From NCBI GenBank assembly GCA_024663395.1, contig JANFAH010000025.1, positions 496,001-560,000 of the forward strand: DNA of 64,000 nt. Reading direction: 5' to 3'. Each line of letters starts with the position of its first letter. Position 1 is the first letter of the stretch. Source of the DNA: Pisolithus tinctorius. Its lineage: Eukaryota > Basidiomycota > Agaricomycetes > Boletales > Pisolithaceae. Below the pieces are notes generated by a model. It did no database searches and was not told the DNA's origin. It worked only from the letters and a program-made list of their open reading frames with translations. A program made the translations under genes and the position numbers. Shown one piece after another: positions 1 through 47,200 of this stretch.

Positions 1-10
1 CCCTTTCAAG

Positions 11-496
11 GTGGAATTTGATTCAACCACAGATCTCATTGCTCACCATGCTCACAAACTCCAGAAATGCCTGGAGGACCTCACTTGCATCCATGACCTG
101 GCCCTAAAATCCCATTTTGCCTCAGCCAAGGATTTCATCAACCATTTTGCACACTCTATCAAAGACTTCAACTTTGAACCAGGGTCACTCATCCTTGTTC
201 AGAATTCCTGCATCGAACTAGAACTCAACTGGAAAACCAAACCACACTACCTAGGGCCTATGATTGTCATCAGACACACTAAAGGCAGCTCATATATACT
301 TGCAGAATTAGATGGTGCTGTCTCAAAATTCTGCTTCACTGCCTTTTGCCTATATCCCTATTTCCCACAGAATAATGCTTGTATTGAAGTCACACAACTG
401 ACTGGCACTTCCACACAAGACCTGGATCACCTTGAGGATGATTTGTTCCCAGACCCTATGCTCACTGGCATCCCTTTGGACAAGTCAGATGAGTAG
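11..496 (+). pseudogene. Ty3/gypsy integrase C-terminal remnant
   Basis: An open frame of about 160 codons resembles the tail of a basidiomycete Ty3/gypsy polyprotein downstream of the integrase core. The clearest blocks are KTKPHYLGPMIVI and GSSYILAELDGAV, which match the C-terminal DNA-binding region of this integrase group. No catalytic DDE core, reverse transcriptase or chromodomain is visible here; the rest would lie left of the window or is lost. The stretch has no CpG, like everything up to about 10030, which suggests an old copy. No LTR could be placed after the stop; positions 497-690 are AT-rich without a gene. The family call is an inference from motif resemblance. Confidence 0.55.
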
Positions 497-719
497 TCCA
501 TCCTTCTCTTTGCCTCCTTTCTTTTCTTTCTCCATTCTTTCTTTATTGATACCCATTTCATCTCATATATAAAATCTGCACTGCTCACAAGAAACAGTCT
601 GTCAAAATCTTTATATATAAAAATTCCACAATGCTTTTACCTTCAGAAGTCTTACATTTCCTTCCCTTACTGTAGTACTAATACTGACACATGAAAGACT
701 CTTACAAATTCAGAACATA

Positions 720-977
720 TGAGTACAAAAATCCCACAGACACTAGTATGCTCTTTACAGTCCTGGAGGTCATCCTTCAACCTTCACAACTCCTCCCATC
801 TGGCCCATGCAGTCTCAATCTGATGTGTTACCTGCCTTGCCAACATCTCCAGCAGCTGGTAGATCTGCTCCAGCTTGAATTCCTCATCCTCAGCTCATGC
901 CTTGAGCACTTGCAAACATTCGATGAAGCTTGCTGTTGACTGCTCATGTGGGTTTTTGACCTCTGGAATTTCAGTGC
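720..977 (-). pseudogene. 3' part of an unrecognised gene split by the 1.85 kb element
   Basis: On the minus strand the frame reads into a hydrophilic, probably helical segment (FKLEQIYQLLEML, then ETAWARWEEL) with in-frame stops. It continues the frame that ends at 2833 on the other side of the 1.85 kb insertion. Removing the insert and one copy of a degenerate 5-base target duplication joins the two frames. The gene therefore existed before the insertion. No function is recognised. The coiled-coil-like tail plus the cysteine cluster upstream resemble repetitive hypothetical proteins of Agaricomycetes, which is inference only. Confidence 0.4.
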
Positions 978-2827
978 TGTGAGTCAAAGTGTGGAAAGGC
1001 AGTATAAATCAACCAAAACCAACACAAAAGACAAATGTAGAGCAAGTGGTGGTGTACCTCCACAGAACCTGGAGGGCAGAAGAAATCTAAGGTGGGGAAA
1101 TTTCAATGGCAGGTGCTCTTGGCACAAGTCAATGACAAGTTACACAAGAGCAGATGAATGAGTGATGACTGAATGGGGGATGCTGAACAGAGTGAAGGTG
1201 TTCAGCTGAAAGGACTTGGGAGTAATGGACTTTGACAATACATGTTCCTGGCACAAGTCAATGACAAGTTACACAGGAGTGGATGGATGACTAAGCAAGA
1301 GTGCTGACTAAGGATGGATAAGACTGCAGATGATGGATGGTGGTAGATAGACCCTTCTGAATGAGCCTCAACTACCAAATATATGAACAATGACAGATAG
1401 ACTCCTTCATGGAGCCTCAACTGTTGATGACAAGATATGCACTGAGAGAGCTGAGCTGACTGACTGGATTGCTTCTTGGTAGCTAAGTACATGGGGGTTT
1501 ATATACTGTGGGGGGGAGCACAGCTTGTGACAAACAAGGCACAAACACCTGGTAAGTAATGAGTAAGGACTGTAAGCACTGAGTAATCCTGATGAGTAAG
1601 CAAGAAATGGAAAGTAAGCAAGCATAGAAGAATTGGTAAGTATTGGCAATAAACAAGTCAAGGACAGTCAAAATATCACAGTATGAGTCAAATAGAGTCA
1701 GAAACTGAGTAAGCGCACTGGATCACATTAGGTGGTGGCAATGCAAGTCAGATCTTGGTGGAGACATCACTGGACCAACAGATTGGATGACAGATGGACA
1801 GTGTTTCCAGATGGGGAAGTATTAATTCCAGAAAAGGATGGCATGAGTCAGGTGTCAATGGGGCTAGGGCATTGGGGGTCTGTGGGGCAATGGGAGCATA
1901 AGTGATCACATCTCCCACCCTTTCATCCTCTCAGCAAAGTTAACAAAAGCTTCATGAATGGGCCTCTGATGGAGAAGGAGGAAAAGGGGGGACATCTTCT
2001 GCTGGATCTTGCAGTAAGAAGGCAAGATGCATGTCATACTCATCATGGATGCAATCAGGAAGGCTGGAGAACAGTAGATTATACTGCAGCTGTTGCAATG
2101 CAGGGAGAATGATAGATGAGATTGGAATAAAGATGGTGCAGGGAGCAGGAAGGAAGGACCCATATGCTTCATCAGTGGGGAGACTGAAATGACCACATAA
2201 GACCTTTGTAACTGAGTGACAGACCTGAGGCAACCAAAGAATGTCCTTCTGGAAGTCATACTGACAAGGAGAACATGCTGACCAAGCTGCATGGGATGAG
2301 ATGGGGCTGACAACAATGGAATGAACCAGGGGGCTTCAGGACAGAAGCTGGTGGGAATGCCTGGCAGATATATGTAGCCACTGTCTCTGGCAAATGAGAC
2401 AAGCGAGATGATCAACAAAGAGGCAGCCATGATTGATGGACTTAGTGAAATGAGCATCTGATGGATGGAGTACTGTAGACATGCATAGGGTGCAAGGATC
2501 CTCTCCAAATTTGGAAGGCAGGATGGCATGGCTGAGCACTTTAAGCAAGTGTGAGAATGGAGTCGATATCTTTGGAAATGGTGGAGATATGACAAAAACT
2601 GGAATGCCATACACAGGCACTAAAAACCTTTAATGCACACTTAACTTGCTTCCACTTTTCTCTTTAGCACTGATGACTCATTCTTGTGTGAAGGATGACT
2701 GCTCACATCCAGCAGTCCTTCTACACATGAGGGCTTTAGTCTTCATATGCATGGCATGGCACACAACTCATCGACAAGTTAGGCAGAGTCAGCTGTAACC
2801 ATGTCCACAACACCTTTGGTGTGAGAC
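978..2827 (+). mobile_element. 1.85 kb unclassified element, copy 1
   Basis: This segment aligns along its length with 34035-35846. Both begin TGTGAGTCAAAG and end with the palindrome ACACCTTTGGTGT a few bases before the border. Here the flanks AGTGC and AGCAC look like a 5-base target duplication altered by two transitions. The copy is almost CpG-free and contains a local duplication of about 35 bp (near 1121 and 1250). It carries a degenerate minus-strand reading frame homologous to the intact one in copy 2. No transposase, reverse transcriptase or terminal repeat pair was found. The TG..AC(A) ends would also fit a solo LTR, but coding capacity inside argues for an element in its own right. 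Confidence 0.6.
1906..2760 (-). pseudogene. Broken copy of the 1.8 kb element's protein
   Basis: Several minus-strand frames together match the protein read at 34996-35801 in copy 2. Shared blocks include FARDSGYIYLPGIPTSFCPEA, here written as FARDSGYIYLPG and PTSFCPEA, then VSMTSRRTFFG, RSYVVISVSP and YNLLFSSLPD. The match changes frame at least twice (near 2400 and 2230) and has two stops near the N-terminus, so this copy cannot make the full protein. The conserved amino acids across two diverged copies indicate that the ancestor was translated. No known family was recognised. Confidence 0.5.
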
Positions 2828-2832
2828 AGCAC

Positions 2833-4302
2833 CTGAAGGAGTGTTGCTCTGGATTGGCTCTTTGATGCCTCCCAGTTCATTTAGCAAGCCAGTCACAATT
2901 GTGGAAAATGGCTTGAACTCAATTTGCAGTTCATTGAAAGGGAGTGTCAGGGAGGGTTCATTGACAGGGGCTGGTAGGGTCAAAGGTCCAGGTGTTGGAG
3001 TAGCCCTGTGGAAAAAGAGATGAGGTGTTGGCAAAGGATTGTGGGGGGAAGGGGTTGGTTCTGGTGAAGGCAAGTGTGTGGGGGTTGGATCAGGCTGCCA
3101 TTTTCAAGCTGGAATTTTCAGAGTGAGCTTCTTAGCAGGTCCAGTCACAGGTTCTGCTGGGGCCACCTTCAAGGTCATAATCAATTTGACTCATTTGTGG
3201 GACAGGCCTGCCTCCCCAACAGTGCTGGAGTTCTTTCACTGAAGGTGGTGTCAACTCATTCCCTTGTGGAATTTCACCTGTACAGTACTCACCTTTCTCC
3301 CTACTCCATGAGAGCATGAGCACTTGTGCTTCACCTTCCTGCACTGTTTGCAGGACAATTCTGGCTCCCCAACACACACAAGGTTTGCCTGGGCACATGT
3401 CTTGCAGGGCTTGTTGTCCCCAGCCATGCAAGGTCCCTTTGTGGAAGGACCTGGCTCACCTTTGCCTTTGCCATTTCCCTTGTCATCATCAACATCATCA
3501 GCCAGCTTGTCCTCCTTGCTGATGGCCTGTGGAATTTTCATTGAAGTCAGCATTCATGCTCAGGGTTGTCAAGGACATAGAATGCACCTTCTGCTTCCCT
3601 TTTCCCTTGCTCATGCTACAAGAGCCCTCCCCTGTCGAATGTGCAGCTCCTCTTGATGGGTGTCCTTTGGTATCTTCTGGCATGTGGTCTTGACCCTCAC
3701 CTCATGCTGCTTGGCCTTGGGTGTGCATGGATGGTGCCTTGGCCAACCTCTCAGCCTCCAACTGTGCTCTCTCCTCTACCCACTCCTGGTAGTCCTTGCA
3801 GAGGTCAGTGATGTTGAATCTTTGCTGCCCTTCTGGCCACCAAAGATCCACTATTGCTATAACTGCCAGGATCACCTCATTCTGCTGTATTGCAGATTCT
3901 TCAGTCATGTTGCAAAGGTTAGCATTGCACACCTTTGGGATGGAGATTTTGTTCTCATCAACATACTTCCACCACAACTAAATGCCAGCCTGGGGGTCTG
4001 TCAGCATGTTGCATTGCATGAGTCTCTGGTGCACTCACCCAAGTCTGGTCCCAGTCCTCCACCCACTTGTATATCACCTCTAAGCTCTCTTTGGGCCATG
4101 GTGCTGTGTCAATTAGCACCCTAACATGCCTTAGAGCTGCTGACAGCAAGGTGATGGCCTGGTCCCTCATGCTGCAAACTGGTCGTGCATTGTGGATCAA
4201 GTAGGCTTGCATGGCGAAGGTTGGGTATGGGCTTGGGTAGTGGATATGGGTGTAGCTGGGGAGTGGAAGTTTGACAAGTGGTGAGACACCTTCTGAGCAC
4301 AT
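2833..4302 (-). pseudogene. Unrecognised gene with Zn2Cys6-like cysteine cluster
   Basis: Fragments in changing frames read along the minus strand: a segment with YKWVEDWDQTW (about 4050), one with DLCKDYQEWVEERAQLEAERL (broken here into DLCKDYQEWV and EERAQLEAERL, about 3760), a low-complexity KGKGKQK stretch, and a cysteine cluster at about 3320-3430 (CKTCAQ, CVGEPELSCKQCRKVKHKC). The spacing resembles fungal Zn2Cys6 domains, though the context is not that of a normal transcription factor. A proline-rich segment follows, and the frame is then cut by the 1.85 kb element at 2832. Frameshifts and lack of CpG mark it as decayed. It may be one multi-exon gene with 5442-6130; that is inference. 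Confidence 0.4.
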
Positions 4303-5441
4303 TTAAATTCCACAGGGCCATCTTGTACAATGTGGAATTTCCCTCTGCATGAGGCAGAATTCTGACCACATGCCATCATTGTTACATAATGCCTGCTGAT
4401 ATTCTGCACTCGTCTCTGTCACCTCTCAGTTCAGTCTGACCAAGGACAGTCAGTATTCAAAGTCCCCAGGAGGTGTAGGGAGCCATATACTCCCTGAGGC
4501 TGGAACAGGAATCCATCACTAAATTCCACAGGCCTCTGCAACAAACCCATTTCAGAATTTTTCCTCCTCATGTCCTCATGCTTCCTCCCAACCCCTGTTG
4601 CCTTTGGAGTTTCTACTGACCTTCAGCATGTTGCCCAGTCATCAATATGCTGATCCAGAAGTTCTGCATTCACTCAGAGTCATCCAGAATTCAGTAGCCA
4701 TGCCACCACCCAGCCATGTCACCAGTCATCCATGCCACTTGCCTCTAAAAACTCTGGTTTCCCCCTGTCACCCTAAATTCCACAAGCTGGACTTTGTGCC
4801 AGTATGCTCTGCCCTCCTGTGCTTCCCCCTCCCACCAGCTCTACCTCCCACTTGTATGCATACCCTCATTCTGTTGGAAGATACCCCTTACCATTGTCCC
4901 ATTTTTACTCTTGTCTACTGCCCACTGGACTATTTCACATGCATCTGTAATTCACTGACATCTGACATCCTTTCCTTTATCTTCCAGTCTTTTAGTTTTT
5001 CCACCCCACCTTACTCTGACTCATACCTACTTTCTTTGTACTATATAATTCCACCATGATGTCAGAAATATACCACCCACCTTTAGAGTTGCTATCTGTG
5101 TGTGTTCCACAAGTTCGAGAGTTCTCAGAGTCTAAGTGTGTATATTGAGTCTACAGCATCTACAGCATCTCTAGTGGTCTTTGTGTCTCTTGCATCTCCC
5201 AATCCCACACACCTTATCCTGTATCCCCCTCACCTCAATTACACTCTTCTCATCACATAACAGCTTTTCAGAATTTTGTATACTCATCTTGCTGTTCCTC
5301 GCATGTCCACATCTGTCCAGAATTAAATCCCATGGCTCTCACTTGAATTCCCCCCACCCCCCTTCTAGTCTTATTCTCAACTTCTCCTTCCATGCAGCAC
5401 CCCTTGGGGCAATCCTACAGAATTCTCCCTTCAGCCTTCCT
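4303..5441. other. No gene recognised
   Basis: CpG-poor, C/T-rich on the plus strand, with several scattered AATTCCAC motifs and a short tandem CATCTACAG repeat near 5155-5170. The open frames here are low in complexity and show no recognisable domain. It could be intron or intergenic sequence of the minus-strand gene remnants on both sides. Confidence 0.3.
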
Positions 5442-6130
5442 CTAGTCACATGCTTCCCAGAAGTCATGTCCCACAGCAGGTGTTTGGTGCTGCACAGCCT
5501 TGTGTGGGTGGGGTTGTGCTTCAGCTGGGGGTGGGGGGAGACAAGGGGCTGCCTCCTGGTAAGGGCCTTTTTGGTGCATTGTTGGGGGGAGCACTTTGAC
5601 AAATGCTTGCAAGTCAGAAATGAGGTGAAGGGAGTGATGAAGCATATTCACTACTAATGGAATGTCGAAGGCTTTCAGGTCAGCTTCATGCAACAGCTGA
5701 AGCTGGTCTGAATAATTCATGTTAGTCAGGTCAGCATAATTGTGCAAGATCAGTAATACTCACCAGCTGTCAAATGCTTGAGATAAAATGATGAAGCAGG
5801 TACTGGCACAAAGTGGTCTTCCTCCTCTGCTGGAGCCTCCAAGTTGTAATCCTGTTCCATCTGTTCTTTCAAAAATGGAACAGTGAGAGCATGGAGCTCA
5901 TCAGTGTTGAGGTGCTTCACATTGAAATCAGGACCAACTGCTGGAACTCCAGCTGGCCAATCAACAATGGTATGCTTGTGGATGAAGAGCAGGTCTAGCA
6001 GCACCTTCCATGGAACATTCTTCTGCCCACACTTGATCTCAGCTTCATCTGTGGGGCTTCAGCTAGTAGATCAGATAGAGATAGTTGTAGTGACTTACAG
6101 AACTTCTGTGAGATCATCAGAGGTAAGATA
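5442..6130 (-). pseudogene. Fragment of a repetitive Agaricomycete hypothetical gene
   Basis: Two minus-strand exons are visible. The first (about 6020-5764) contains VDWPAGVPAVGPDF followed by LNTDELHALTVPFLKEQ. The second (about 5706-5442) contains KAFDIPLVVN and SDLQAFVKVLP. They are joined by a convincing intron with donor GTGAGT, a CTAAC-type branch site and acceptor TTCAG. I recognise this pair of blocks as typical of a repetitive family of unknown function in TE-rich Agaricomycete DNA; that is memory of a pattern and was not searched. No start codon or complete gene could be defined, and the flanks are decayed. Confidence 0.4.
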
Positions 6131-6289
6131 TGCTGATTTCAATTGCATCTGACTTCCTGGGATTGTAATGCAAGAGCACAGTCATATGACTTTTGCGATA
6201 ACAGGGCAAAGTTGGGTAGTGGGATGGAAGCAGCAGAGTCAAGGATTTTATATCTAGAGGATGCTACATCTAACCCCTGAGCAACTCCC

Positions 6290-7090
6290 TGAGCTTTTGG
6301 TGATGCAAGCTGGAACAGCATATGTCTTTGACATTGGTGTTCCATTCTCTTAACCCATCAGAGCATTCAAGAAACTAACCCTCTGAGTCTATTCATGCCA
6401 AATCCCTCAAGGGAACACATTAGGTCATTCCTCAAAATGGAGTTAACTATGGAATGATCTTTGGAGCAATGGCCTTTCAGTTCTGTTAATTCTAACAAGT
6501 GAGTCAAGTTTAAGACTTGATGAGGCTATTCATGCACAGTAACAGGTGGAGGTTATTATATCCCTATCCTTGCAAACTAGACATGCAGACAGGGAACATG
6601 TGATGCTGGTGCTAACAGATTCATCATGAAGGACCTCCTGCCTGAAGAGGCATCTGGTTTTCACAGGAATTGCATGGAAGCTGGGTGAGTGTAGGTCACT
6701 GAATCTGGTGCCCAAAGCAAACTCATTGATGGCCTAAAGCCTTGTCCCTCATGTGGCACTGTTGATATCCCTGGGCTGGCTTCCTGTCAGCCTTCCATTA
6801 AAGGGTTGGTGGACAGCAAACTTCTTGACACCATCATTTGTATCTGAAATTCACTTTGATGGTGTCATTATCAAGAGTCACATAGTCTCCATGTGTGGGC
6901 TGGTCCAGTTCCTTGAGAAGTCAAGGATGTTGGCAAAGATTGAACATTTACAGATTCTCCTAGCCTTTGCAATACACTGGAATCTCTCAGCTCTTACATA
7001 GACAATGGACTGATTGTCTTGACCAGCACATTTGAGAAATGGTGGAGGAAAAGTGGCTGATGACTGTGTGCAAGATGTGAGTCATTGAAT
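6290..7090 (+). pseudogene. Tryptophan synthase remnant 1 (alpha part)
   Basis: This CpG-free segment matches 43190-44050 closely and 62420-63150 more distantly. Through the latter and the better copy at 16430-18365 it can be identified as decayed fused tryptophan synthase, mainly the alpha half. Correspondences include the segment reading MQAG..ADV in copy 4 and the block IHFDGV, equivalent to VHFDAVVEAG in copy 2. Frames change repeatedly and no exon is intact. It is the left end of duplicated block I. Its lack of CpG contrasts with the CpG-rich copies at the right ends of both blocks. Confidence 0.45.
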
Positions 7091-7252
7091 TTAGGGTAAA
7101 TTGTGCATTTGAGGTGGTTGATGAGTGAGGTGGGTAATTACTCAGGTGTTTGATACCAATACAAAGGCCAATGCAACATTGAATTGTTCATACTGTACTT
7201 GGTGTGTAGAATACAAAGTCAGTGACAAGCATAAAGTGCATATGTATCAACA

Positions 7253-10200
7253 CTAGGAAATGTATTTGAAACAGTCCTGCCATTTGTTTCCATGGGCCAT
7301 ATGACTCAAGTCCAGCTCCACACAACATCCTCTAGGAATGATTAATTTGGTTTGGATTGAATAAAATGGGGCCTGCAAAGATGCAGGTATCCATAAAAGC
7401 AATCTCCCCTGTGGGCCTCTGATCCAGCCATCAGGGTGCAGCAGGACTGGTTGAGTTATGTCCTCCAATGTGTGGTCATCAAGAAGTTGTCCACTGTCAG
7501 ATAATGCATGTGATGAGACTGAAGAAAAGCAAATGGGGTGTGTCCCATGAATCTGAGTGGCTGTCAGAATAAAGTCAGATATTGTGACAGCATGAATACA
7601 GATAGCTGTAAATAATGTACTCACCATTAACATGTATCATGGTAGGATGACCATTTCCATCTCCTGAGATCCCAACAGCTTCACCTGCTGAGCCAGAGAT
7701 AATCATATGGCTATCAGAGGAGAGTGCAACTGAGTGGGCATCCTCAGTATGCCCCTTCAGAGGGCTGCCAATCTGATCTCCACTCTTTGTATCCCAGACC
7801 CTCACAGTCTTGTCATCTGAGCCTGAGACAATCCTGTTGCCATCAGGGGAGAATGCAACTGAGGTGACATTTGAAGTATGCCCCTTCAGAGGGCTGCCAA
7901 TCTGATCTCCACTCTTTGCATCCCAGACCCCCACAGTGTTGTCCCAAGAGCCTGAGACAATCCTGTTGCCATCAGAGGAGAATGCAACTGAGGTGACATA
8001 TGAAGTATGCCCCCCCAGAGGGCTGCCAATCTGATCTCCACTCCTTGCATCCCAGACCCTCACAGTGTTGTCCCAAGAGCCTGAGACAATCCTGTTGCCA
8101 TCAGGGGAGAATGCAACTGAGGTGACATATGAAGTATGGCCCTCCAGAGGGCTGCCAATCTGATCTCCACTCTTTGCATCCCAGACCCTCACAGTGTTGT
8201 CCCAAGAGCCTGAGACAATCCTGTTGCCATCAGGGGAGAATGCAACTGAAGTGACATATGAAGTATGCCCCTCCAGAGGGCTGCCAATCTGATCTCCACT
8301 CTTTGCATCCCAGACCCTCACAGTGTTGTCAAAAGAGCCTGAGACAATCCAGTTGCCATCAGGGGAGAATGCAACTGAGGTGACCCAATTACCATGCCCC
8401 TCCAGAGGGCTGCCAATCCGATCTCTACTCTTTGCATCCCAGACCCTCACAGTGTTGTCCCAAGAGCCTGAGACAATCCTGTTGCCATCAGGGGAGAATG
8501 CAACTGAGGTGACCCAACTACCATGCCCCTCCAGAGGGCTGCCAATCTGATCTCCACTCCTTGCATCCCAGACCCTCACAGTCTTGTCCTCTGAGCCTGA
8601 GACAATCCTGTTGCCATCAGGGGAGAATGCAACTGAGGTGCCATATGAAGTATGCCCCTCCAGAGGGCTGCCAATCTGATCTCCACTCTTTGCATCCCAG
8701 ACCCTCACAGTCTTGTCAAAAGAGCCTGAGACAATCCTGTTTCCATCAGGGGAGAATGCAACTGAGGTGACATAATCAGTATGCCCCTTCAGAGGGCTGC
8801 CAATCTGATCTCCACTCTTTGCATCCCAGACCCTCACAGTGTTGTCCCAAGAGCCTGAGACAATCCTGTTGCCATCAGGGGAGAATGCAACTGAGGTGAC
8901 AGGAGAAGTATGCCCCTTCAGAGGGCTGCCAATCTGATCTCCACTCTTTGCATCCCAGACCATCACAGTGTTGTCCTTTGAGCCTGAGACAATCCTGTTG
9001 CCATCAGCAGAGAATGCAACTGAGGTGACATGCCAAGTATGCCCCTTCAGAGGGCTGCCAATCTGATCTCCACTCTTTGCATCCCAGACCCTCACAGTGT
9101 TGTCCTCTGAGCCTGAGACAATCATATTGCCATCAGGAGAGAATGCAACTGAGGTGACATCACTTGTATGCCCCTTCAGAGGGCTGCCAATCTGATCTCC
9201 ACTCTTTGCATCCCAGACCCTCAAAGTGTTGTCCTCTGAGCCTGAGACAATCCTGTTGCCATCAGGGGAGAATGCAACTGAGGTGACAATTGAAGTATGC
9301 CCCTTCAGAGGGTTGCCAATCTGATCTCCACTCTTTGCATCCCAGACCCTCACAGTGTTGTCCCAAGAGCCTGAGACAATCCTGTTGCCATCAGGGGAGA
9401 ATGCAACTGAGGTGACAGGAGAAGTATGCCCCTTCAGAGGGCTGCCAATCTGATCTCCACTCTTTGCATCCCAGACTCTCACACTGTTGTCCTCTGAGCC
9501 TGAGACAATCCTGTTGCCATCAGGGGAGAATGCAACTGAGGTGACAGCATCAGTATGCCCCTGTAAGGCAAGCTGGACAGCTGGCCAGTCCTGGAGACCC
9601 CCCTGAGCAACTTTCACAAGATGGAAGAATTTGCACACAAGTTGTTTGGAAAACAAGGATGTAGAAGGTGCAAAGGGCAATGCAGACAGGTATAGGTGTG
9701 GTGCACTGCATGAAATTGCCATGGTAAAGTATTGCAAAAATTTGACCCCATCCATTGCTAATGCTGCTGGTACTTCACAACCTGAATGGCCCTGCACATG
9801 ACATCAGGTGACATCAAATGCCACTTGCCAACTGGAGTACTTACCTGTAACCATCTGGCTGTGATTGCAAGAGAGGATTCAGCACTTCCCAATGCTCCAA
9901 GAAGGCTGAGAGCCTCAATCCAGAACAGGATTTTTTCACTCTCTACAATGCCTTGTACAGATGTTGCAAGGCACGAGTCAAACCTGGCCATCTCCAAATG
10001 CTCTGCCCAGAATTTGCAAGAGTAGGATAAGTGTCGTGGAATACTTGACTTGATTCTCTCCGGCAAGTCAGGAATCTGGGAGTTGCTGAGGTACGAGTTT
10101 TCCAGCCTGCAGATGTTGAAACGCAGCTCCTTAGCTAGCACTTGCAACGAGGCATAGGCTAGATTACTTGAGTCAGAAGTGTCGATGAAGTAGACTCCAC

Positions 10201-15055: not shown

Positions 15056-15067
15056 CAGGTAGACATT

Positions 15068-25323: not shown

Positions 25324-25328
25324 AGCGG

Positions 25329-31295: not shown

Positions 31296-31300
31296 ACAAT

Positions 31301-35846: not shown

Positions 35847-35851
35847 ATTGC

Positions 35852-36117: not shown

Positions 36118-36153
36118 CGCTCCACCTGTACTATCAGAAACATCTCTCTCGAA

Positions 36154-37158
36154 ATGCCTCCCCATCGTTACACTTACCCTCGAGAACCCTCCCGTCGCCA
36201 CACCCCGTTTGCTCGTCGGCAACGACAGCCCGCTAGTGATCAGATGATCGCTTCCTACCGACTCTTCGTTGCTGATCCTGCTGTCATCGGCACTGTCTAT
36301 CATGAGGTGGATGAAGATTCCCCTCTTGATCTTGTGTATCACGCCACTATCCAAGCCCTTCGGCTTGAAGAACTCTCTCGTTATGTCAATCGCCAGAACC
36401 CCCTCCTTTCCCCCGCTCATACTATCCTGGGTGAAATCGCCCTCCAACAGGTTCCCTTACTTCTTAAACTTTTTGATGTCCTTGGAGGTGCCGACCTCAT
36501 TTATAACGTTCGTCAGTATCCAGCATTGATCGCACCCCCCCCGCCTGGGTCTAGAAGACCCTCAACTGCAACTTCTCCTCCGGTTTCCTCTGTGTCGACC
36601 TCCCCTCCTGCACCGTCGTCGTCATCATCCTCCCGCTCATCCCGCTCTCTCCGAAGAGCCGACAGACCTCATGCCTGCTGCTTGTCAGGCCCCAATCCTC
36701 AACCCTGTGAGTCTCACGACTCCCCATCTGAAGTAGACCCCAAGACCGCCTTTGGCGTCTCCCGTGCTGAACTCGACTACACGTTAAACATCATCGAAAC
36801 CCTTGCACAGCTGCCGCCGTCTCCTGTGTTGAATGCCTTGACCAAATTCGACATGCCTCTTACTCCATCCGATCCACACTATCGTCAAGCGTGTTATGTC
36901 TGCCACCGTCTCGGCCACATCCATGTCAACTGTGGACTGTATGAATGTCCCCTTTGCCACGCCACTCGTCCCAGGCATACTCAGGCCCAATGCCCTTCCA
37001 TCCGCCCTCATCGTCCTTTACAGGACAGAATAGCTACCCCCGCTCTGGTAGATGATTGTACCCTCGTCGGGAGCGAGGATAACGACTTGTACGACAATGG
37101 TTTTGATTTTGACGACTCCGCCATCAGTAACATGACCGGAGAACCTTATGGAGAGTAG
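36154..37158 (+). CDS. Gypsy-1 third ORF, zinc-knuckle protein
   Basis: 334 codons from an ATG 36 bases after pol. A helical first part (IGTVYHEVDEDSPLDLVYH, LRLEELSRYVNRQNPLL) is followed by a Ser/Pro-rich linker (about residues 130-170). Near the C-terminus are two Cys/His motifs: CYVCHRLGHIHVNC (CX2CX4HX4C) and CPLCHATRPRHTQAQC. An acidic tail follows. It sits before the 3' LTR like the third ORF of gypsy-2. It has no recognised homologue; a nucleic-acid-binding accessory role is an inference from the knuckles. Confidence 0.7.
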   Translation: MPPHRYTYPREPSRRHTPFARRQRQPASDQMIASYRLFVADPAVIGTVYHEVDEDSPLDLVYHATIQALRLEELSRYVNRQNPLLSPAHTILGEIALQQVPLLLKLFDVLGGADLIYNVRQYPALIAPPPPGSRRPSTATSPPVSSVSTSPPAPSSSSSSRSSRSLRRADRPHACCLSGPNPQPCESHDSPSEVDPKTAFGVSRAELDYTLNIIETLAQLPPSPVLNALTKFDMPLTPSDPHYRQACYVCHRLGHIHVNCGLYECPLCHATRPRHTQAQCPSIRPHRPLQDRIATPALVDDCTLVGSEDNDLYDNGFDFDDSAISNMTGEPYGE

Positions 37159-37195
37159 TTGAAGTCGGGGACTTCAACGCTTAGAAAGGGGGTAA

Positions 37196-37646
37196 TGTTA
37201 CATTTCACCCCTAACTTTTCCTTTTCTGCTGTACGTTTACCTTGTTTGTGACCCGTTGGACTTAGTTTCCTTTTAGAGCCGTCTTCTCTCTGATCCAACG
37301 GCTCTCTATTTCCACCACTAGCATTACTGGCTCGTTACATGCTTAGGACATGTGTCGTCATTGTTCAACCAATGGCGTAGTTACCTCGTTACATGCGGAC
37401 GCCTCATGGTCCATTTCTGTATAGTATTTAGACTGCCGGCTCAAGTCCTGGAAACCCAGACTTGAGCTGCTCAATCATATGCAGCGTTCTCAGAACTTTG
37501 CCCTCAGTGTCCCTTACAAGGACCACTCTTACCGGCATTGCCCTAAATCCTCTGTCATTTACAGAGGTTACTGCAGCCGTTGCTCAGTAGAAACCATAGT
37601 CTGCGTTTGAGCTCTCCCTACGTCTTGACTTCGGTCGAGCGTAACA
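37196..37646 (+). repeat. Gypsy-1 3' LTR
   Basis: 451 bp, preceded by a purine run (AGAAAGGGGG, about 37183-37192). Followed by target duplication AACAT at 37647-37651 and then the TGA that ends LINE ORF1. Confidence 0.93.
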
Positions 37647-37878
37647 AACATCTGAACCATCCCACCAAAGTGAGGCCAAAATAGCAGGATAAGAGGAGGT
37701 AGAGGAGGCCCCTTAACATGCTACTTTCAAACATGCAATGACCACACCCACAGTGACCCAGCACCAACCCTGCCCACCCCTGTGACAACACTACAGCCAG
37801 TAAACCCAGACCCCACCCCATCCTTGATCAATGCCTGAACGCTGAACATGCACCAATATGCTAACCAAAATATGCATA

Positions 37879-40800
37879 TGGTAGCAAAACTTAAATACCT
37901 CTCACACTGCACTACACTCACTAATAAACAGTCAAATAGCAGATGAATGGGACATAATCACCATTCAAGAACCACCAACCGATCAAATTGGCAACATATG
38001 GGCCAACACCCATTGGAAGGTCATATACCCCTCAACAAAGCTAACACAAAACACCAAACCACAAGCAGTAACTCTAATTAATTCTAGAATAAGCACTAAT
38101 TCCTGGGAACAGATCACCTTCCCATCCATGGATGTTGTAGTAATGCAACTAAGAACTGCAAAGGGCACCTATGCAATATTCAACATCTACAACGACTGCA
38201 CACACGACCAGACCCTGGAGGCCCTAAGCACCTTCCTTGCTGCGAACACAGAAAAGGTCAGGCCAATGGTGAACAATCACATGCTGTGGTTGGGTGACTT
38301 TAACAGACACCACCCCCTATGGGATGAGGACTGCAACCACCACCTGTTCACAACAAGAGCTCTCAGCTCTGCCCAGAAACTACTAGAACTAATTGCAGAC
38401 TACAGGCTAGTACAAGCGCTGCCCAAAGGCATACCTACCCTCCAGTTGTCCTCCACAGGCAACTGGATGTGCCCAGACAATGTGTTCTGTATGGAGTCAA
38501 CAATGGAGAACATGGTCAGCTGTGACACAAGACCAGAGGACAGAGGCCCCAATACAGACCATGTCCTGATCCTGATGTACCTCGAAGCAGACCTCACCCC
38601 ATCCACAGTGACCCTGACCTACAACTACCAGGATGTGGACTGGAAAGAATTCAACAAGATGCTCAAAACCAAACTTGCTAAGGTCAGCCCCCCAAGAGTA
38701 ATAGCCAATGAACAAGAATTCCAGAGAAAAACAAGAGGAATTGAAGCAGCACTATGAAGCACACTAGAGAAGGTAGTACCAAAGTCGCAACCACACCTGC
38801 ACATGAAATGACGGTGGACAAAGGAGTTGGCAGCCCTACACAAAGAACTCAAAATGCTAAGTAAAACCTCATATGCCTTCCATGCTGTTTGTGATCACAA
38901 AAGTCACAGACTGCATAAGGACAAGGCAAAAGTCTACGACAGGGCTATCCAAGAAGCAAAGAAGAGCCACTGGAGAAACTGGTTGGAAGAAGCAGGAGAC
39001 AGTGACCTCTGGATAGCAAATGGGTACATCTCCAAGCCCTATGGAGATGGAAGCAAAGCCAGAATACCGACTCTCAAGAAAACCAACAAGGACAGTAACG
39101 AGACCCTAGCCAGCTCCAACAAAGACAAAAGCAAAATGTTCACACAGATGTTATTTCCACCACCCCTGGTCCAATCGTCAGTACCACAAAACTATGATTA
39201 CCCAGAACCAGCAACAACATGGGACCCCATCACAAAGGATCAGCTCACCCACACTGTCAAAAACCTCAACCCCTACAAAGCACCAGGACCAGACAGTGTA
39301 GCCAATATCGTGTTTCAGAAATCTCCACTACTACTCAATTACTTACTACACTCTTTCAATGCAGTGTTCACCCTGCAGATGTACTACAACCCCTGGAGGG
39401 AATCCACCACAGTCATACTCAGAAAACCAGGCAAGCCTGACTACTCGATGCCAAAAGCCTACTGACCAATAGCACTACTCAACACCATGGTGAAGCTATT
39501 ATCAGCAATAGTAGCAGAATGAACGTCGTACATACTGGAAAAGCACCAACTACTTCTGGCTACTCACTTTGGTGGCAGACCAGGACAATCGACAGAGGAC
39601 TCACTACTACTACTTGAGACAACCATACAGCACACATGGAGACAAAGAAAAGTAGTATCCATGCTATTCCTGGACATAGAAGGCACATTCCCCAACGCGG
39701 TCATGGACCGACTCTTACACAATATGAGAAAAAGACAACTTCCCCTGGACATAGTCCATTATATGGAGTGCTTACTAACAAACAGGAAGACGAAACTACG
39801 CTTTGACGACTATGAGTCAAACTGGTTCCACATCAAAAATGGCATAGGACAAGGAGACCCCCTATCGATGATCCTATATGTCATCTACAGTGTGGACTTA
39901 GTGGAAACAGCAAAAGGTAAAAAAGAACTAACCCTAGCCTTTGTGGATGATATGGCATTCATTGCCATTGGCAAGAACTTCGAAGACACCCACTCGACAC
40001 TATCTGACATGATGGAACAGGAGGAAGGGGGCTTCGACTGGTCTGAGAAACACAACTCACATTTCGAGACAAGTAATTTGCACTAATGGACTTCATGCTT
40101 AACAGAAACAAGCCCAAACCCCCGCTAACAATAAGAGGTGCAACAATAACACCCATGGCAACCCACAGGTTCCTAGGCATAATTCTCAACCAAGAATTGA
40201 GATGGAAAACACAGGCAGCCCATGCAATAGTGAAGGGCATGAAACAAGCCCTACTGCTCAGAAGAATATCTGCGACATCATGGGGAATACCGATGAAGCT
40301 CATGCAGCAACTCTACCAAATGGTAGTCATACTGAAGATGATGTACACTGCACCAGTATGGATCCAGCCAGCATACACTGGAGATCACAACACCAGAACA
40401 AGAGGGTCGAAGGGTATAACTAACTGTCTCCTCTCAGTTCAAAGAGTGGTGGCCATAGTGATCATGGGTGCCATGAGGACCACCCCCACTGACACTTTGC
40501 TAGCACATGCACACATCCCCCCCATGTCACTCCTTATACAGCATACGCTATACAAAGCATCACTCAGACTCTCAACACTACCAAGTGAACACCCTCTCCA
40601 CATACATGTCAGCAAAACAGCTGGGACTAACATCAAGCACCACTGAACAGCACTCCACCATCTGACACATGACCTAAACATCAATCCCAGGCAAATCAAA
40701 ACTATCTGCCTGTATCCAACCCCACCAATGGAACACCTGTTGCATGCAACTGTCATAGCACCCAACAAAAAAGAAGCAATCGAAGACCTAGCAAGAATAA

Positions 40801-41759
40801 GAGACTGCATGCTAATCTTCACTGATGGATCAAGCACAGAGGAGGGTGTAGGGGCAGCAGTGGTCTTGTACGTAGACCACCAACATGTAACCATGCTGCA
40901 ATACCACTTGGGAAGTGCCTCACAACACACAGTGTTCGAGGCGGAGGTGGCAGCAATGCTGCTCACAGTGCATCTCCTCGCAACCAAGGAGGAAGTCATG
41001 TTCCCAGCCACCATACTAGCTGACAACCAAGCAGCGATCAAATCGAGTGAGCGACCACTAGTGAAAACAGGACACTATCTACTAATGCACCTCAGATTGG
41101 CAATCCAAGAAATCACCACCAAAGAATGCTTAGCAAGGAAAAGCATCACACTGCGGTGGATAGCAGGCCACATGAAAGTAGAAGGCAATGAACTTGCAGA
41201 CAAAGAGGCAAAAATAGCAGCAAAAGGACCTAATTTCACCAGCCATCTGCAAGCGCTTCCACCAGTGCTAAGGAAAAACCTACCCCATAGTGTAGCTGCC
41301 CTCAAGCAGCTGCACACTGCGAGACTGAAGACCCTATGGACCCAAATTTGGAAGAAGTCCCCCCAGTATGACAAAACAGCCAGCATTGATCCATTCCTAC
41401 CCAAAAACTCGTTCATGAAACTAGCCACCTCCCTGCCCAAGAAACAAACAAGCCTCTACATGCACCTCTGCACAGGCCATGCACCACTCAACAAACACTT
41501 ACACCGACTCAACTGAAGCGACACCCCCACCTGCCTCCAATGCAGGAGGACTAGTTTGGAAAGCGTGCATCATTTCCTGTTCCAATGTCCCAGATATGAC
41601 AGGGAGCGGTACATCATGCAAAGAGCCCTAGGAAGAGATGCTACCTCCCTGTCATTCCTACTGTCCAACCCAAAAGCCTGTCCACACCTTCTCAAATATG
41701 TAGATACCACCAAATGTTTTCAACATGAAACATTCAACAATAAACACAAAAACAGCTAA
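37879..41759 (+). pseudogene. LINE ORF2: endonuclease, reverse transcriptase, RNase H
   Basis: Endonuclease blocks: IADEWDIITIQEPP (about 37940), LWLGDFNRHHPLWD (about 38290) and NTDHVLILMYLE. Reverse transcriptase: YKAPGPDSVANIVF, GGRPGQSTEDSLLL, GIGQGDPLSMILY, LAFVDDMAF (about 39940). RNase H: LIFTDGSSTEEGVGAA (about 40820), FEAEVAAMLL, ADNQAAI, GNELADKEAKI. A Cys/His tail follows (CLQCRR..HHFLFQC). There is a stop in W-stop-QNLN (37882), TGA at 38755, 38809, 39463, 39520, 40644 and 41514, and a one-base loss near 40075. It cannot encode an active protein. Confidence 0.9.
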
Positions 41760-42295
41760 AACCACACATACACCATCAAATGCCCTCACACCACATCCAT
41801 TCCCTGAACCCCCACCCTTCCCACTCTCCCCTCCACACACATAAAACACACATTACAAACCCACCAGTCACACCCTCCCACCTCACCTCACTAGCTCCCC
41901 AAACCCATGCTCCAACCATTCACATGTCACCTGACAACCCACTCTCTCACCACACTGTGCAGCATAAAGTCATGACAGCCCCATCCAACTGGACATGTAA
42001 GAACACACTCATAACCCAAAACTGATGCCCACATGGCCGTTGACTGAGTGTAGTTAGAGTTACTCGACTAGCCGAAGTACTAAACCACCCTTACTGAAAA
42101 GGTGGAGTGTCTAAAATGGCTGGCGGGAACAGAGGACTAATGGGGAACCAAAGGTTCTGCCATTAGGGCATTCACTCACTGGTAAGGAGTGGTAGGCCAC
42201 AGGGGGCCTCTGCTAGATCATTAACTAAGGTAGAATAGTGCAACATAGGGTAGACACACCCTCAAAGCACTTTAATTCAGAGAAAAAAAAAAAAA
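41760..42295 (+). other. LINE 3' untranslated region and poly-A tail
   Basis: Non-coding after the ORF2 stop. Ends with 13 A at 42283-42295 followed by the right target duplication GCATGGACA. No gene is seen. Confidence 0.75.
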
Positions 42296-42809
42296 GCATG
42301 GACACTCAGCTGAAGCACTTCCCATTCTTCTGCTTGTAATTCACAACAACATTCTAGATTATGATGGCAAGTTGATGTTGTGCAGTCAGGTTGTTGTGTA
42401 GGTGTCTTGGAAGTTGTGAAAACTGGCAAAGAAACAACTTGTTTCCATGTTTCATCATGGGAGGCACTACATCTTGATCTGCCCCTGTGCAGTATATGCC
42501 AATTGTCACATTAATGGTCAGATATGTCATTGAACATGTCATGAAAGAACTTCTGGCTGATATGGAGGTACCATGGACAGCAGAGGATGAAGAGATCTCA
42601 AACTTGGACCTGGAGCCTGGAGCAGGCACAACCATGAATCCTGTTGTTGCAAAGACCAATTTATGGAAGCTACATCTAGCCCCTGAGCAACAGCCTTGAA
42701 CTCTTTGAATCTCATGTTTGCTTGCTGATCTTATGTTTGCTTGCTCTTACAATCTCTAATAGCACTCATGCTAATATCAATATCCTTTAGACTATCTTCT
42801 CCATATCCA
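42296..42809. other. No gene recognised
   Basis: CpG-poor sequence between the LINE and tryptophan synthase remnant 3. A short stretch near 42664-42690 matches about 6252-6280 in block I (GCTACATCTA, CCCCTGAGCAAC), so the left part of the duplicated block may start here. An open frame of 70 codons at 42487 has no recognised match. Confidence 0.3.
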
Positions 42810-44050
42810 TGTGGGTTATGATTCCTGTGCCATCTTTGTGCTCACTTGGTGGGAGTTTGTCAGAAGTGTGCTGTGGGTTTTGATGGAGACCCCAAGGACA
42901 TTTGCTGGTGTTTGTTGCATCAGTGGGCTTGCCAATTGGGCTGATTCTGAATGGGTGTTCTATGGTCCCCAAATGGAACTTCTGAACCCATCTCAAAAGT
43001 TTGCAGCATTCAATGATCATGCTGAGATTTTTGGATTTGGAACCATGCCTGTCTGCACATTTGGATCTACCCACCAAAGTCTGCAATATCTAAAGTGCTC
43101 AACATTGTCTATTTGGGAAGCCTCACCATGGTCACAGTTGTCACCACAGGTCACTTGAGGAAGGATGACACTGTCCCTGTCCCTTTGGTTAGCAAGCTGG
43201 AACAGCAGATGTCTTTGACATTGGTGTTCCATTCTCTAATCCCATCAGAGCATTCAAGAAACTAACCCTCTGAGTCCATTCATGCCAAAACTCTGAAGGG
43301 AACACATTAGGTCATTCCTCAAAATGGAGTTAACTATGCAATGATCTTTGGAGCAATGGCCTTTCAGTTCTGGTACTTCTAACAAGTGATTCAAGTTTAA
43401 GACTTGATGAGGCTATTCATGCACAGCAACAGGTGCAGGTTATTATATCCCTATCCTTGCAAACTGCCAAGACATGCAAACAGGGGGACATGTGATGCTG
43501 GTGCTAACAGATTGATTGTGGAGGACCTCCTGCCTGAAGAGGCATCTGGTTTCACAGGAATTGCATGGAAGCTAGGTGAGTGTAAGTCACTGAATCTGGG
43601 GCCCAAAGCAAACTCATTGATGGCCTAAAGCCTTGTCCCTCATGTGGCACTGTTGTTATCCCTGGGCTGGCTTCCTGTCTCATAAAATTTTGCTGTTATG
43701 CAAGCTTGACATTACTAGAGTATGCATGTCACCTCTCTCAGATGGGGACCACTCAGCCTTCCATAAAAGGTTGGTGGACAGCAAACTTCTTGACACCATC
43801 ATTTATATGTGAAGTTCACTTTGATGTTGTCACTATCAAGAGTCACAGTCTCCATGGGTGGGCTGGTCCAGTTTCTTAGGTAGTCAAGGATGTTGGCAAA
43901 GATTGAACATTTACACATTCTCCTAGCCTTGTCAACACACTGGAACCTCTCAGCTCTTACATAGACAATGGGCTGATCACTGTGACCAGCACATTTGAGA
44001 AATGGTGGAGAAAATCTGGCTGATGACTGTGTGCAACCTGTGAGTCATTG
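42810..44050 (+). pseudogene. Tryptophan synthase remnant 3
   Basis: CpG-free and collinear with 6290-7090 (from 43190 onward) and with 62140-63150. The early part (42880-42970) aligns with 15730-15830 and 62160-62240. An AAGCTGG..CAGATGTCTTTGACATTGG segment near 43195 corresponds to the alpha-subunit region of copy 4. Splice-like borders (CTCTCTCAG then ATGGGGACC, near 43740) match the alpha intron of copy 2. Frames are broken throughout. It is the left member of block II. Confidence 0.5.
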
Positions 44051-44209
44051 AATTTAGGGTAAAACATGCATTTGGGGTGGTTGATGAGTGAGGTGGGTAA
44101 TTATTCAGGTGATTGATACCAATACAAGTGCCAATGCAACATTCTATTGTTCATACTGTACTTGGGGTGTAGAATACAAAGTCAGTGACAAGGACAAAGT
44201 GCATATGTA

Positions 44210-47200
44210 TCAACACTGGGAAATGTATTTGAAACATTCCTGCCATTTGCTTCCATGGACCATTTCACTCAAGTCCAGCTCCACACATCCTCTAGGAATG
44301 AGTAATTTGGTTTGGATTGAATAAAATGGGGTCTGCAAAGATGCAGGTATCCATAAAAGCAATCTCCCCTGTGGGCCTCTGATCCAGCCATCAGGGTGCA
44401 GCAGGACTGGTTGAGATATGTCCTCCAATGTGTGGTCATCAAGAAGTTGTGCACTGTCAGGTAATGCATGTGATGAGACTGAAGAAAAGCAAATGGGATG
44501 TGTCCCATGAATCTGAGTGGCTGTCAGAATAAAGTCAGATACTGTAACAGCATGAATACAGATAGCTGTAAATAATGTACTCACCATTATCATGTAACAT
44601 GGTAGGATGACCATTTCCATCTCCTGAGATTCCAACAGCTTCACCCACTGAGCCAGAGATAATCATGTTGGCATCAGAGGAGAATGCAACTGAGTGGGCA
44701 TCCTGAGTATGTGCCTTCAGAGGGCTGCCAATCTGATCTCCACTCTTTGTATCCCAGACCCTCACAGTCATGTCCTCTGAGCCTGAGACAATCCTGTTGC
44801 CATCAGGGAAGAATGCAACTGAGGTAACATAAGAAGTATGCCCCTCAAGAGGGCTGCCAATCTGATCTCCACTCTTTGCATCCCAGACCCTCACAGTCTT
44901 GTCCTCTGAGCCTGAGACAATCCTGTTGCCATCAAGGGAAAATGCAACTGAGGTGACTTCCCAAGTATGCCCCTTCAGAGGGCTGCCAATCTGATCTCCA
45001 CTCTTTGCATCCCAGACCCTCACAGTCTTGTCCCTTGAGCCTGAGACAATCCTGTTGCCATCAGGGGAAAATGCAACTGAGGTGACAAAAGAAGTATGCC
45101 CCTCCAGAGGGCTGCCAATCTGATCTCCACTCTTTGCATCCCAGACCCTCACAGTGTTGTCCAAAGAGCCTGAGACAATCCTGTTGCCATCAGGGGAAAA
45201 TGCAACTGAGGTGACTTTTGAAGTATGCCCCTCCAGAGGGCTGCCAATCTGATCTCCACTCTTGGCATCCCAGACCCTCACAGTGTTGTCCCAAGAGCCT
45301 GAGACAATCCTGTTTCCATCAGGGGAAAATGCAACTGAGGTGACTTTTGAAGTATGCCCCTCAAGAGGGCTGCCAATCTGATCTCCACTCTTTGCATCCC
45401 AGACCCTCACAGTCTTGTCCTCTGAGCCTGAGACAATCCTGTTGCCATCAGGGGAGAATGCAACTGAGGTGACATAAGCAGTATGCCCCTCCAGAGGGCT
45501 GCCAATCTGATCTCCACTCCTTGCATCCCCAACCCTCACAGTCTTGTCCCAAGAGCCTGAGACAATCCTGTTGCCATCAGGGGAGAATGCAACTGAGGTG
45601 ACAGGCAAAGTATGCCCCTTCAGAGGGCTGCCAATCTGATCCCCACTCTTTGCATCCCAGACCCTCATAGTCTTGTCATCTGAGCCTGAGACAATCCTGT
45701 TGCCATCAGGGGAGAATGCAACTGAGGTGACAAGAAAAGTATGCCCTGTCAGAGGGCTGCCAATCTGATCTCCACTCCTTGCATCCCAGACCCTCACAGT
45801 GATGTCCCAAGAGCCTGAGACAATGCTGTTGCCATCAGGGGAGAATGCAACTGAGGTGACATTTGAAATATGCCCCTTCAGAGGGCTGCCAATCTGATCT
45901 CCACTCATTGCATCCCAGACCCTCACAGTGTTGTCACCTGAGCCTGAGACAATCCTGTTGCCATCAGGGGAGAATGCAACTGAGGTGACATAATCAGTAT
46001 GCCCCTTCAGAGGGCTGCCAATCTGATCTCCACTCATTGCATCCCAGACCCTCACAGTGTTGTCACCTGAGCCTGAGACAATCCTGTTGCCATCAGGGGA
46101 GAATGCAACTGAGGTGACATAATCAGTATGCCCCTTCAGAGGGCTGCCAATCTGATCTCCACTCATTGCATCCCAGACCCTCACAGTGTTGTCCAAAGAG
46201 CCTGAGACAATCCTGTTGCCATCAGGGGAGAATGCAACTGAGGTGACATCCCTTGTATGCCCCTTCAGAGGGCTGCCAATCTGATCTCCACTCTTTGCAT
46301 CCCAGACCCTCACAGTGTTGTCCCCTGAGCCTGAGACAATGCTGTTGCCATCAGGGGAGAATGCAACTGAGGTGACAGCATCAGTATGCCCCTGCAAGGC
46401 AAGCTGGACAGCCGGCCAGTCCTGGAGACCCCCCTGAGCAACTTTCACAAGATGGGAGAATTTGCACATAAGTTGTTTGGAAAACAAGGATGTAGAAGGT
46501 GCAAAGGGCAATGCAGACAGGTATAGGTGTGGTGCACTGCATGAAATTGCTGTGGTAAAGTATTGCAAAAATTTGACCCCATCCATTGCTAATGCTGCTG
46601 GTACTTCACAACCTGCATGGTCCTGCACATGACATCAGGTGACATCAAATGCCACTTGCCAACTGGAGTACTTACCTGTAACCATCTGGCTGTGATTGCA
46701 AGAGAGGATTCAGCACTTCCCAATGCTCCAAGAAGGCTGAGAGCCTCAATCCAGAACAGGATTTTTTCACTCTCTACAATGCCTTGCACAGATGTTGCAA
46801 GGCACGAGTCGAACTTGGCCATCTTCAAATGCTCTGCCCAGAATTTGCATGAGTAGGATAAGTGCTGTGAAATATTTGACTTGATTCTCTCCGGCAAGTC
46901 AGGAATCTGGGAGTTGCTGAGGTACGAGTTTTCCAGCCTGCAGATGTTGAAACGCAGCTCCTTGGAGAGCACTTGCAACGAGGCATAGGCTAGATTACTT
47001 GAGTCAGAAGTGTCGATGAAGTAGACTCCACTTCGCGAATGATCAGTTAGGAAGTCATAAAAGGATGCATGGAGAGGTCGAACAGGAGATGTGTGGTCAG
47101 CAATACCACCCAGCACTGGGGCCATGAACTGAAGGATTATGACTACATCATAGTGGTCTTCTTTACTGGGGAAGAGGCTGCGCATATGATTCAGTGCCGC

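Follow-up and report, generated by a model that had tools for sequence, protein, structure and literature searches.

CpG depletion centred on the WD40-repeat arrays of a large NLR family in Pisolithus tinctorius

CpG mosaic of the window and its two NLR genes

We asked why CpG dinucleotides vanish at matching places inside two NLR genes of the window, the whole 64,000-nucleotide stretch of Pisolithus tinctorius DNA analysed here. A preliminary description had reported an abrupt CpG mosaic with borders at 10030, 18150, 20853, 37650 and 46870, and three-state segmentation confirmed the mosaic and placed these borders to within ~65 bases or better. The window opened with a depleted tract (7-10032; 16 CpG, CpG observed/expected ratio (O/E) 0.03), followed by 10035-18087 (O/E 0.94), by two adjoining depleted pieces (18109-19091, O/E 0.02, and 19096-20854, O/E 0.16) and by 20859-33992 (O/E 0.96). 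A further, partly depleted piece (33995-35518, O/E 0.37) and 35526-37640 (O/E 0.87) preceded 37645-42124 (O/E 0.23) and 42130-46803, which held 1 CpG in 4675 bp (O/E 0.00), and CpG was again frequent over 46805-63997 (O/E 1.07). Where CpG dropped, TpG and CpA went up, the excess that the description had proposed as a check. Its suggestion that the last two depleted segments are one tract split by gypsy-1 was supported by the LTR positions (Table 1) and by the AACAT read on either side of the element; the LINE-like halves (19096-20854 and 37645-42124) were strongly, not completely, depleted. The border at ~18.1 kb sat within a stretch that, by eye, resembles a degenerate tryptophan synthase, and a window self-comparison found similarity between 17060-17869 and 63089-63847.

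In NLR2, domain matches placed a NACHT/STAND domain and WD40 repeats on two neighbouring ORFs, which are presumably spliced into one protein. The WD40 region of NLR1 (7620-9624) contained 1 CpG. Each of the two arrays held a single CpG, compared with 169.5 (sd 8.7) and 159.1 (sd 8.8) expected when the same WD40 proteins were recoded with NACHT-exon codon usage (2000 simulations each); GC content was 0.52 in array 1 vs 0.51 in the NACHT exon. Mean pairwise amino acid identity of the WD40 units was 0.881 in NLR1 and 0.864 in NLR2 (13 units each). Highly conserved WD40 repeats of fungal NLRs are defined, in the portion of PMC4986451 consulted, by more than 85% identity over at least 100 amino acids, and both window copies lie above these values. 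Across the loci read, mean unit identity was at least 0.85 at 18 of the 39 loci with at least three motif units and lower at 21.

Table 1. Features of the window (positions in the window; strand "." where none applies)
Feature	Position	Strand	Details
CpG-depleted tract spanning old repeats and NLR1 WD40 array	7..10032	.	segmentation
Depleted fragment adjoining array 1, corresponding to that at 42874..43871	6286..6788	+	window self-comparison
NLR1 WD40-repeat ORF, 742 aa stop to stop	7575..9803	-	tandem array 7690-9562, period 129, 14.5 copies
NLR1 NACHT-exon ORF, 589 aa, CpG-rich past border	9758..11527	-	94% identical to NLR2 exon
NLR1 ramp, CpG recovery inside NACHT exon (end approximate)	10033..10500	.	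segmentation, CpG profile
Tryptophan synthase alpha-like ORF, CpG-rich	16516..17142	+	PF00290
Depleted tract preceding gypsy-1: end of tryptophan-synthase-like copy and part of LINE-like element	18109..20854	.	segmentation, sequence letters
gypsy-1 LTR element, interrupts LINE-like tract	20854..37648	.	LTRs 20854-21306 / 37196-37648, 96.9% identical
gypsy-2, CpG-rich, nested in gypsy-1	23166..31298	-	LTRs 98.7%
LINE-like part, partly depleted	37645..42124	+	endonuclease ORF 37885-38757 (PF14529); RNase H ORF 40647-41516 (PF00075)
CpG-free tract over NLR2 WD40 array and 3' flank	42130..46803	.	segmentation
Degenerate fragment in 3' spread zone of array 2	42874..43871	+	homologous to 62155-63078; 0 CpG; 12-20 stops per frame, six frames
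NLR2 WD40-repeat ORF, 699 aa	44535..46634	-	tandem array 44648-46393, period 129, 13.5 copies
NLR2 NACHT-exon ORF, 589 aa	46589..48358	-	PF24883 NPHP3_N, PF05729 NACHT
NLR2 ramp, CpG recovery (end approximate)	46804..47500	.	segmentation, CpG profile
gypsy-3, CpG-rich, within second NLR unit	49490..59154	+	LTRs 99.7%
Homologue distant from any array	62155..63078	+	69 CpG; just ahead of tryptophan-synthase-like stretch (63094-63171 matches)

A family-wide border that follows the WD40 array

The NACHT family gave 77 match rows at 74 places in the 92.5-Mb genome. We read 42 of these places (30 plus 12); the window's own two genes (L001 and L004) were represented by window sequence, and L031-L042 rank low in the NACHT match list and are not a random sample. 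In all 42, the NACHT exon was rich in CpG, and the dinucleotide became almost absent in the direction of the 129-bp WD40 repeats; paralogues with no more than 59-65% protein identity had the border too. The depletion was centred on the array: 41 arrays (that of L026 is absent, cut by an insert) contained 30 CpG in 55,855 bp, and 19 of them contained none, 17 of the 41 running off the end of the sequence read. Genome-wide, 1103 of 1137 places coding for SVAFSPDG lacked CpG.

Alignment of 39 loci on the array showed CpG O/E changing from 0.63-1.24 at more than 900 bp from it, through 0.56-0.84 (900-500 bp) and 0.22-0.32 (500-300 bp), to ~0.01 from 300 bp out into the array. A gradual CpG profile would, according to the preliminary description, refute its abrupt borders; at the NLR border of these loci the profile was partly gradual, a ramp of ~600 bp rather than a step. 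Upstream, the depleted tract reached 254-583 bp from the array (median 435), followed by the partial ramp; L023 and L025, whose array start was placed late, were excluded from the profile and the median, and their own values lie within the same range. Nine of 41 loci had the downstream end of the tract within the sequence read. It lay 591-1079 bp beyond the array at L034, L039, L040, L041 and L042 and 1786-3303 bp beyond it at L032, L033, L035 and NLR2. The description's proposal of a boundary fixed at these positions comes close, in that the position is constant relative to the WD40 array at every locus read; the constancy seems, however, to be that of the array and of how far the effect spreads from it rather than of any boundary element.

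CpG transitions in open frames and in DNA beside the arrays

The arrays carried a CpG-specific C-to-T signature. Among array codons, the third position before G was C in 0.2% and T in 53%, compared with 38% and 21% before other bases. Alanine was encoded by GCG in 0.1% and by GCA in 68% of cases, and arginine by AGG or AGA in all except 9 of 1054. What replaced CpG matched its transitions, with T ahead of G and A in place of the G of GCG and TCG, rather than an open choice among synonymous codons; the NACHT codon sample comprised only loci whose chosen frame was stop-free. Most frames were open, with 38 of 40 arrays stop-free in the part read (arrays with at least three motif units; L042 and L026 excluded). 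According to the excerpts of PMC1805685 used here, RIP prefers CpA in most ascomycetes and targets linked duplications that exceed 400 bp and 80% identity. The repeated DNA of P. tinctorius did show C:G to T:A changes, but without a preference for CpA: CpA and TpG were in excess and CpG was lost. Duplication of that size and identity did not predict the effect either, in that the C32 TPR array described below, >2.4 kb long with units mostly 86-98% identical, was undepleted.

Non-array DNA adjacent to the arrays had also lost CpG. The degenerate fragment next to array 2 retained 0 of 68 aligned CpG of its distant homologue, 54 of which had become TG, CA or TA, and a control pair of similar identity, both far from arrays, kept 23 of at least 45. 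A tryptophan-synthase identity of 42874-43871 and 62155-63078 was withdrawn, as tblastn matched only 63094-63171. In 13 close paralogues, the fraction of decayed CpG sites fell from 0.47-0.73 at 300-750 bp to 0.08-0.39 at 750-1800 bp, but climbed again to 0.46-0.63 at 1800-2100 bp; the contrast was weak in 17 diverged paralogues (0.67-0.83 vs 0.39-0.58). This unevenness counts against the explanation favoured below. Among the four closest locus pairs, the ramp had changed at 5 of 81 CpG sites and the NACHT exon at 3 of 275; over all seven close pairs the counts were 29 of 157 and 45 of 513. These small numbers give no more than a hint that CpG is lost faster in the ramp.

Origin of the depletion and relation to known systems

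We consider it probable that CpG methylation and deamination act on a very high-copy receptor repeat whose protein is kept by selection. The WD40 repeats of the large NLR family would constitute such a repeat, tandem and dispersed, and would be handled like transposons. CpGs within and around every array would be methylated, with 5-methylcytosine as the likely intermediate, and lost through deamination to TpG and CpA, the mutation pattern seen. The effect would extend a few hundred bases past the array on both sides, so that the same border falls in the NACHT exon of each copy read, and selection presumably maintains most reading frames, so that the arrays would stand near a CpG-free equilibrium.

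As to what marks an array, our first hypothesis, that tandem identity alone is the trigger, was ruled out by the C32 TPR tandem array: its 270-bp units (last copy 78% identical) had CpG O/E of 0.64-0.65 vs 0.88-0.91 in the flanks. Present identity was not predictive either, since the short array of L042 (2.7 units) was as CpG-free as the others and the diverged arrays of L018 and L019 (mean adjacent identity 0.59-0.60) were equally so. Copy number is the trigger that we infer. Among the 336 units read, a WD40 unit had, at ≥85% identity, a median of 84 counterparts spread over 15 other loci; for NACHT exons the corresponding figure was 7 loci, and they were not depleted. With exons dispersed at half as many loci unaffected, support for a dispersion threshold is weak.

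Selection against CpG in the WD40 coding part, whether to escape silencing or through demands on the transcript or on codon use, would explain why depletion is almost complete while the majority of frames are open, and a CpG-free array would present no methylation target. However, the depletion runs past the frame into the degenerate fragment without CpG and with stops in all six frames, fades upstream inside the same exon, and replaced CpG by its transitions rather than by arbitrary synonymous codons; on these grounds codon or transcript selection was rejected as the main cause, and such selection is improbable. We give similarly little credence to a spread of methylation from old transposons that lie 3' of each NLR gene. 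Depleted old repeat DNA does lie 3' of both window arrays, and at L031, L036, L037 and L038 the tract remained depleted up to the end of the sequence read, but at L034, L039, L040, L041 and L042 it was limited to the array and its surroundings, bordered by CpG-rich DNA in both directions, and these five loci disfavour a spread solely from neighbouring transposons.

The other alternative of the preliminary description, a chimera that joined an old, CpG-poor half to a young, CpG-rich one in a single event and was then duplicated, found no support and is very improbable. Both window copies do carry the border inside a duplication whose BLAST pieces are 86.7-93.3% identical, but the two halves are similarly diverged between the copies, with differences at 219 of 3363 sites (6.5%) in the depleted block and 428 of 5669 (7.5%) in the CpG-rich block, or 332 (5.9%) without CpG transitions. 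Moreover, the border recurs in the distant paralogues, where passive inheritance would have allowed new CpGs, and it is a ramp, not a joint. Hardly any more credible is a general 3' gene-body methylation that depletes gene ends: NLR genes are indeed depleted on their 3' side, but 12 TPR-domain loci (~3.1 kb each, several overlapping, one gene kind only) kept 4-19 CpG in every full 200-bp bin (180 bins), repeats included.

The proposed methylation of repeats, of a MIP-like kind, has parallels in other fungi. One study of a mushroom-type fungus reportedly concerned introduced repeats and CpG sites. Repeat methylation in such a fungus is reported in the sections of PMC5073141 consulted, in which nothing concerned endogenous immune genes or mutation. 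The available extracts of PMC4352252 describe CpG-only signatures in the transposons of three basidiomycetes, two of which show them weakly, and de novo methylation followed by deamination was proposed and linked to a Masc2-like enzyme. The signature found here is likewise CpG-only; the targets there are transposons, whereas here they are host NLR recognition repeats with mostly open frames, together with their flanks. The P. tinctorius genome has three places that partly match PF00145, the cytosine-methyltransferase domain; for RIP, the enzyme would be of the RID class and the timing premeiotic.

The NWD family of Podospora anserina (het-d, het-e) likewise combines NACHT and WD40 domains, high internal repeat identity and few hypervariable positions. 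The excerpted text of PMC1805685 describes concerted evolution with RIP as a proposed added supply of mutation; there, two pseudogenes show RIP in their NACHT domain and flanks, and the CA/TA and TG/TA ratios of their WD repeats are as in the rest of the genome. Here the reverse was observed, with the WD40 repeats depleted and the NACHT exon not. A shaping of NLR recognition repeats by repeat-directed mutation was proposed for Podospora from a sample too small to tell (same excerpts). Here every copy read bears a strong footprint of this kind, and the family supplies its own controls: the gene's NACHT exon, a sequence that occurs both beside an array and at a distance from any, and a TPR array that is spared. 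Two questions become testable, namely how an array is singled out for CpG loss and how the frame of an immune gene survives it. Among the CC-licensed PMC papers listed in a literature search, none described basidiomycete NLR repeats free of CpG, which does not prove absence. More speculatively, and on balance unlikely, repeat-directed CpG mutation might be a standing part of recognition-domain evolution that quickly converts new CpGs in more than 1000 WD40 units and directs or limits residues and codons (arginine as AGG/AGA), with a CpG-free end state that would let the repeats stay homogeneous and unsilenced. Among WD40 units chosen by a motif, which itself imposes conservation at positions 1 and 3-10, the highly variable positions were 2, 18, 42 and 43.

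CpG mosaic of the window and of the NLR family

Profiles of CpG, TpG and CpA across the window, together with a segmentation, confirmed the mosaic of nearly CpG-free and CpG-rich stretches reported in the preliminary description, with borders agreeing to ~65 bases. Depletion falls into two grades, near zero and partial (see table), and one partly depleted piece, 33995-35518, is additional to that description. This piece (CpG observed/expected, O/E, 0.37) sits in gypsy-1, an LTR element that is otherwise CpG-rich; its kin are depleted at 1591-2752 and CpG-rich at the NLR locus L026. Chance is excluded as the cause of CpG scarcity in both window WD40 arrays, since NACHT-exon codon usage predicts ~170 and 159 CpG in the two WD40 proteins, against 1 observed in each.

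Coordinates of CpG segments and repeat-bearing features
Feature	Position	Remarks
Near-zero CpG segments	7-10032; 18109-19091; 42130-46803	from segmentation
Partly depleted segments	19096-20854; 37645-42124; 33995-35518	from segmentation
NLR units	6286-15834; 43174-62246	same orientation as each other; BLAST pieces 86.7-93.3% identical
TPR tandem array	L043:1305-3126 + L045:1-2190 (contig C32, about 350098-352603)	1576-aa open frame; not CpG-depleted

The second NLR unit is broken by gypsy-3. A LINE-like element occupies the interval between the units; gypsy-1 splits it and in turn contains gypsy-2. Tryptophan-synthase-like copies adjoin each unit (16516-18109 and 63089-63847); their translations look degenerate. 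The window transposons are graded in CpG depletion like the rest: CpG is plentiful in all three gypsy elements, whose LTRs are 96.9-99.7% alike, and the LINE-like element is partly depleted. One unknown repeat has related copies at three grades, with O/E of 0.05 at 1591-2752, 0.52 at 34628-35797 and 0.86 in the L026 tail, the last value measured over DNA that contains some LTR-like sequence as well.

The window lies at C25:496001-560000 in a genome of 92.5 Mb and 221 contigs. A scan of that genome with the NACHT exon returned 77 match rows, corresponding to 74 places and three small extra pieces. Among the best 120 of 911 protein matches of this exon, the top-scoring relatives came from Pisolithus tinctorius and P. 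microcarpus, which puts the fungus in or near that genus (Boletales). In genome searches for other domains, several matched places are paired on different contigs with equal or near-equal scores, which suggests that the assembly contains both haplotypes. Separately, L037 and L038 (C5:2810179 and C5:2823695) lie ~13.5 kb apart in opposite orientation with zero differences over the 1600 bp compared. Sequence was read at 42 of the 74 places, on many contigs and including the window's two, and at all 42 a CpG-rich NACHT exon gives way to almost no CpG as the WD40 repeats are approached; the most distant loci have 59-60% protein identity. The CpG border is a property of the gene family.

Across 39 loci aligned on the array start, O/E ranges over 0.63-1.24 at upstream distances above 900 bp, declines along a ramp, and is ~0.01 over the last 300 bp before the array and on entering it. 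The depleted tract begins 254-583 bp upstream (median 435); its downstream end, visible at nine loci, lies 591-1079 bp past the array in five and 1786-3303 bp in four. In those first five, the tract is an island whose centre is the array rather than the gene or neighbouring transposons. At L026, inserted repeat DNA leaves only some one and a half repeats of the array, and CpG is back at the insert.

Mutation signature and reading frames

The array changes are CpG-specific transitions on both strands: third codon positions preceding G are C in 0.2% and T in 53%, whereas before other bases C exceeds T (38% and 21%), GCG is replaced mainly by GCA, and GC content is like that of the NACHT exon (0.52 in array 1, 0.51 in the exon). 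The CpG-loss process also hits DNA adjoining the array, since 42874-43871, next to array 2, kept 0 of 68 CpGs aligned with its homologue far from any array (62155-63078), whereas a pair of similar identity, both away from arrays, kept 23 of at least 45. At these 68 sites, 54 are now TG, CA or TA, and C to T change affects 33, compared with 25 of 186 other sites; the segment carries 12-20 stops in every one of six frames. Among 13 close paralogues, CpG sites had decayed in 47-73% of cells at 300-750 bp from the array and 8-39% at 750-1800 bp, rising again to 46-63% at 1800-2100 bp; 17 diverged paralogues gave a weaker near/far contrast.

No in-frame stop occurs in 38 of the 40 arrays tested, within the part read (in 17 of 41 arrays the sequence read ends inside the array), and stops are present in some NACHT exons of the family. 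L017 and L033 are the sole exceptions, and the frame also shifts inside both arrays. Of 1137 genomic places encoding the motif SVAFSPDG, 1103 (97.0%) lack CpG; fourteen have CpG at the Pro codon, one of them within the L030 array. Unit positions 2, 18, 42 and 43 are highly variable and several others moderately so, while the conservation of positions 1 and 3-10 follows from how units were chosen. In Podospora, variable WD40 positions lie on the interaction surface (PMC1805685).

Age and trigger of the depletion

That old and young halves were joined and then duplicated, one of the two readings proposed, is not supported by the divergence between the window's NLR copies, 6.5% of sites in the depleted block against 7.5% in the CpG-rich block (5.9% excluding CpG transitions); the two blocks look equally old. 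CpG transitions are nearly absent between the two depleted blocks, suggesting that depletion preceded duplication of the units.

Of related systems, CpG-type mutation of transposons is already known in basidiomycetes (PMC4352252), and PMC5073141 cites the methylation of repeats in Coprinus. For Podospora WD40 repeats, RIP was proposed, and WD repeats look normal in RIP-hit pseudogenes (PMC1805685); such repeats are called prone to RIP in PMC4986451. In the openly licensed literature searched, CpG-free NLR repeats were not reported for any basidiomycete, which is no proof of absence.

High-identity tandem repetition as a sufficient trigger is ruled out by the C32 TPR array, whose 270-bp units are mostly 86-98% identical and which keeps an O/E of 0.64-0.65 (flanks, 0.88-0.91). 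We tentatively favour copy number: WD40 units are both tandem and dispersed; among the 336 read, a unit has a median of 84 counterparts at ≥85% identity, spread over 15 other loci, compared with 7 loci for the NACHT exon. The TPR repeat has at least 10 matches at ≥85%, a measure not equal to the WD40 figure owing to the longer query. Alternatively, the TPR array may escape through young age. The C32 TPR gene is a second high-identity repeat gene, one that escapes depletion.
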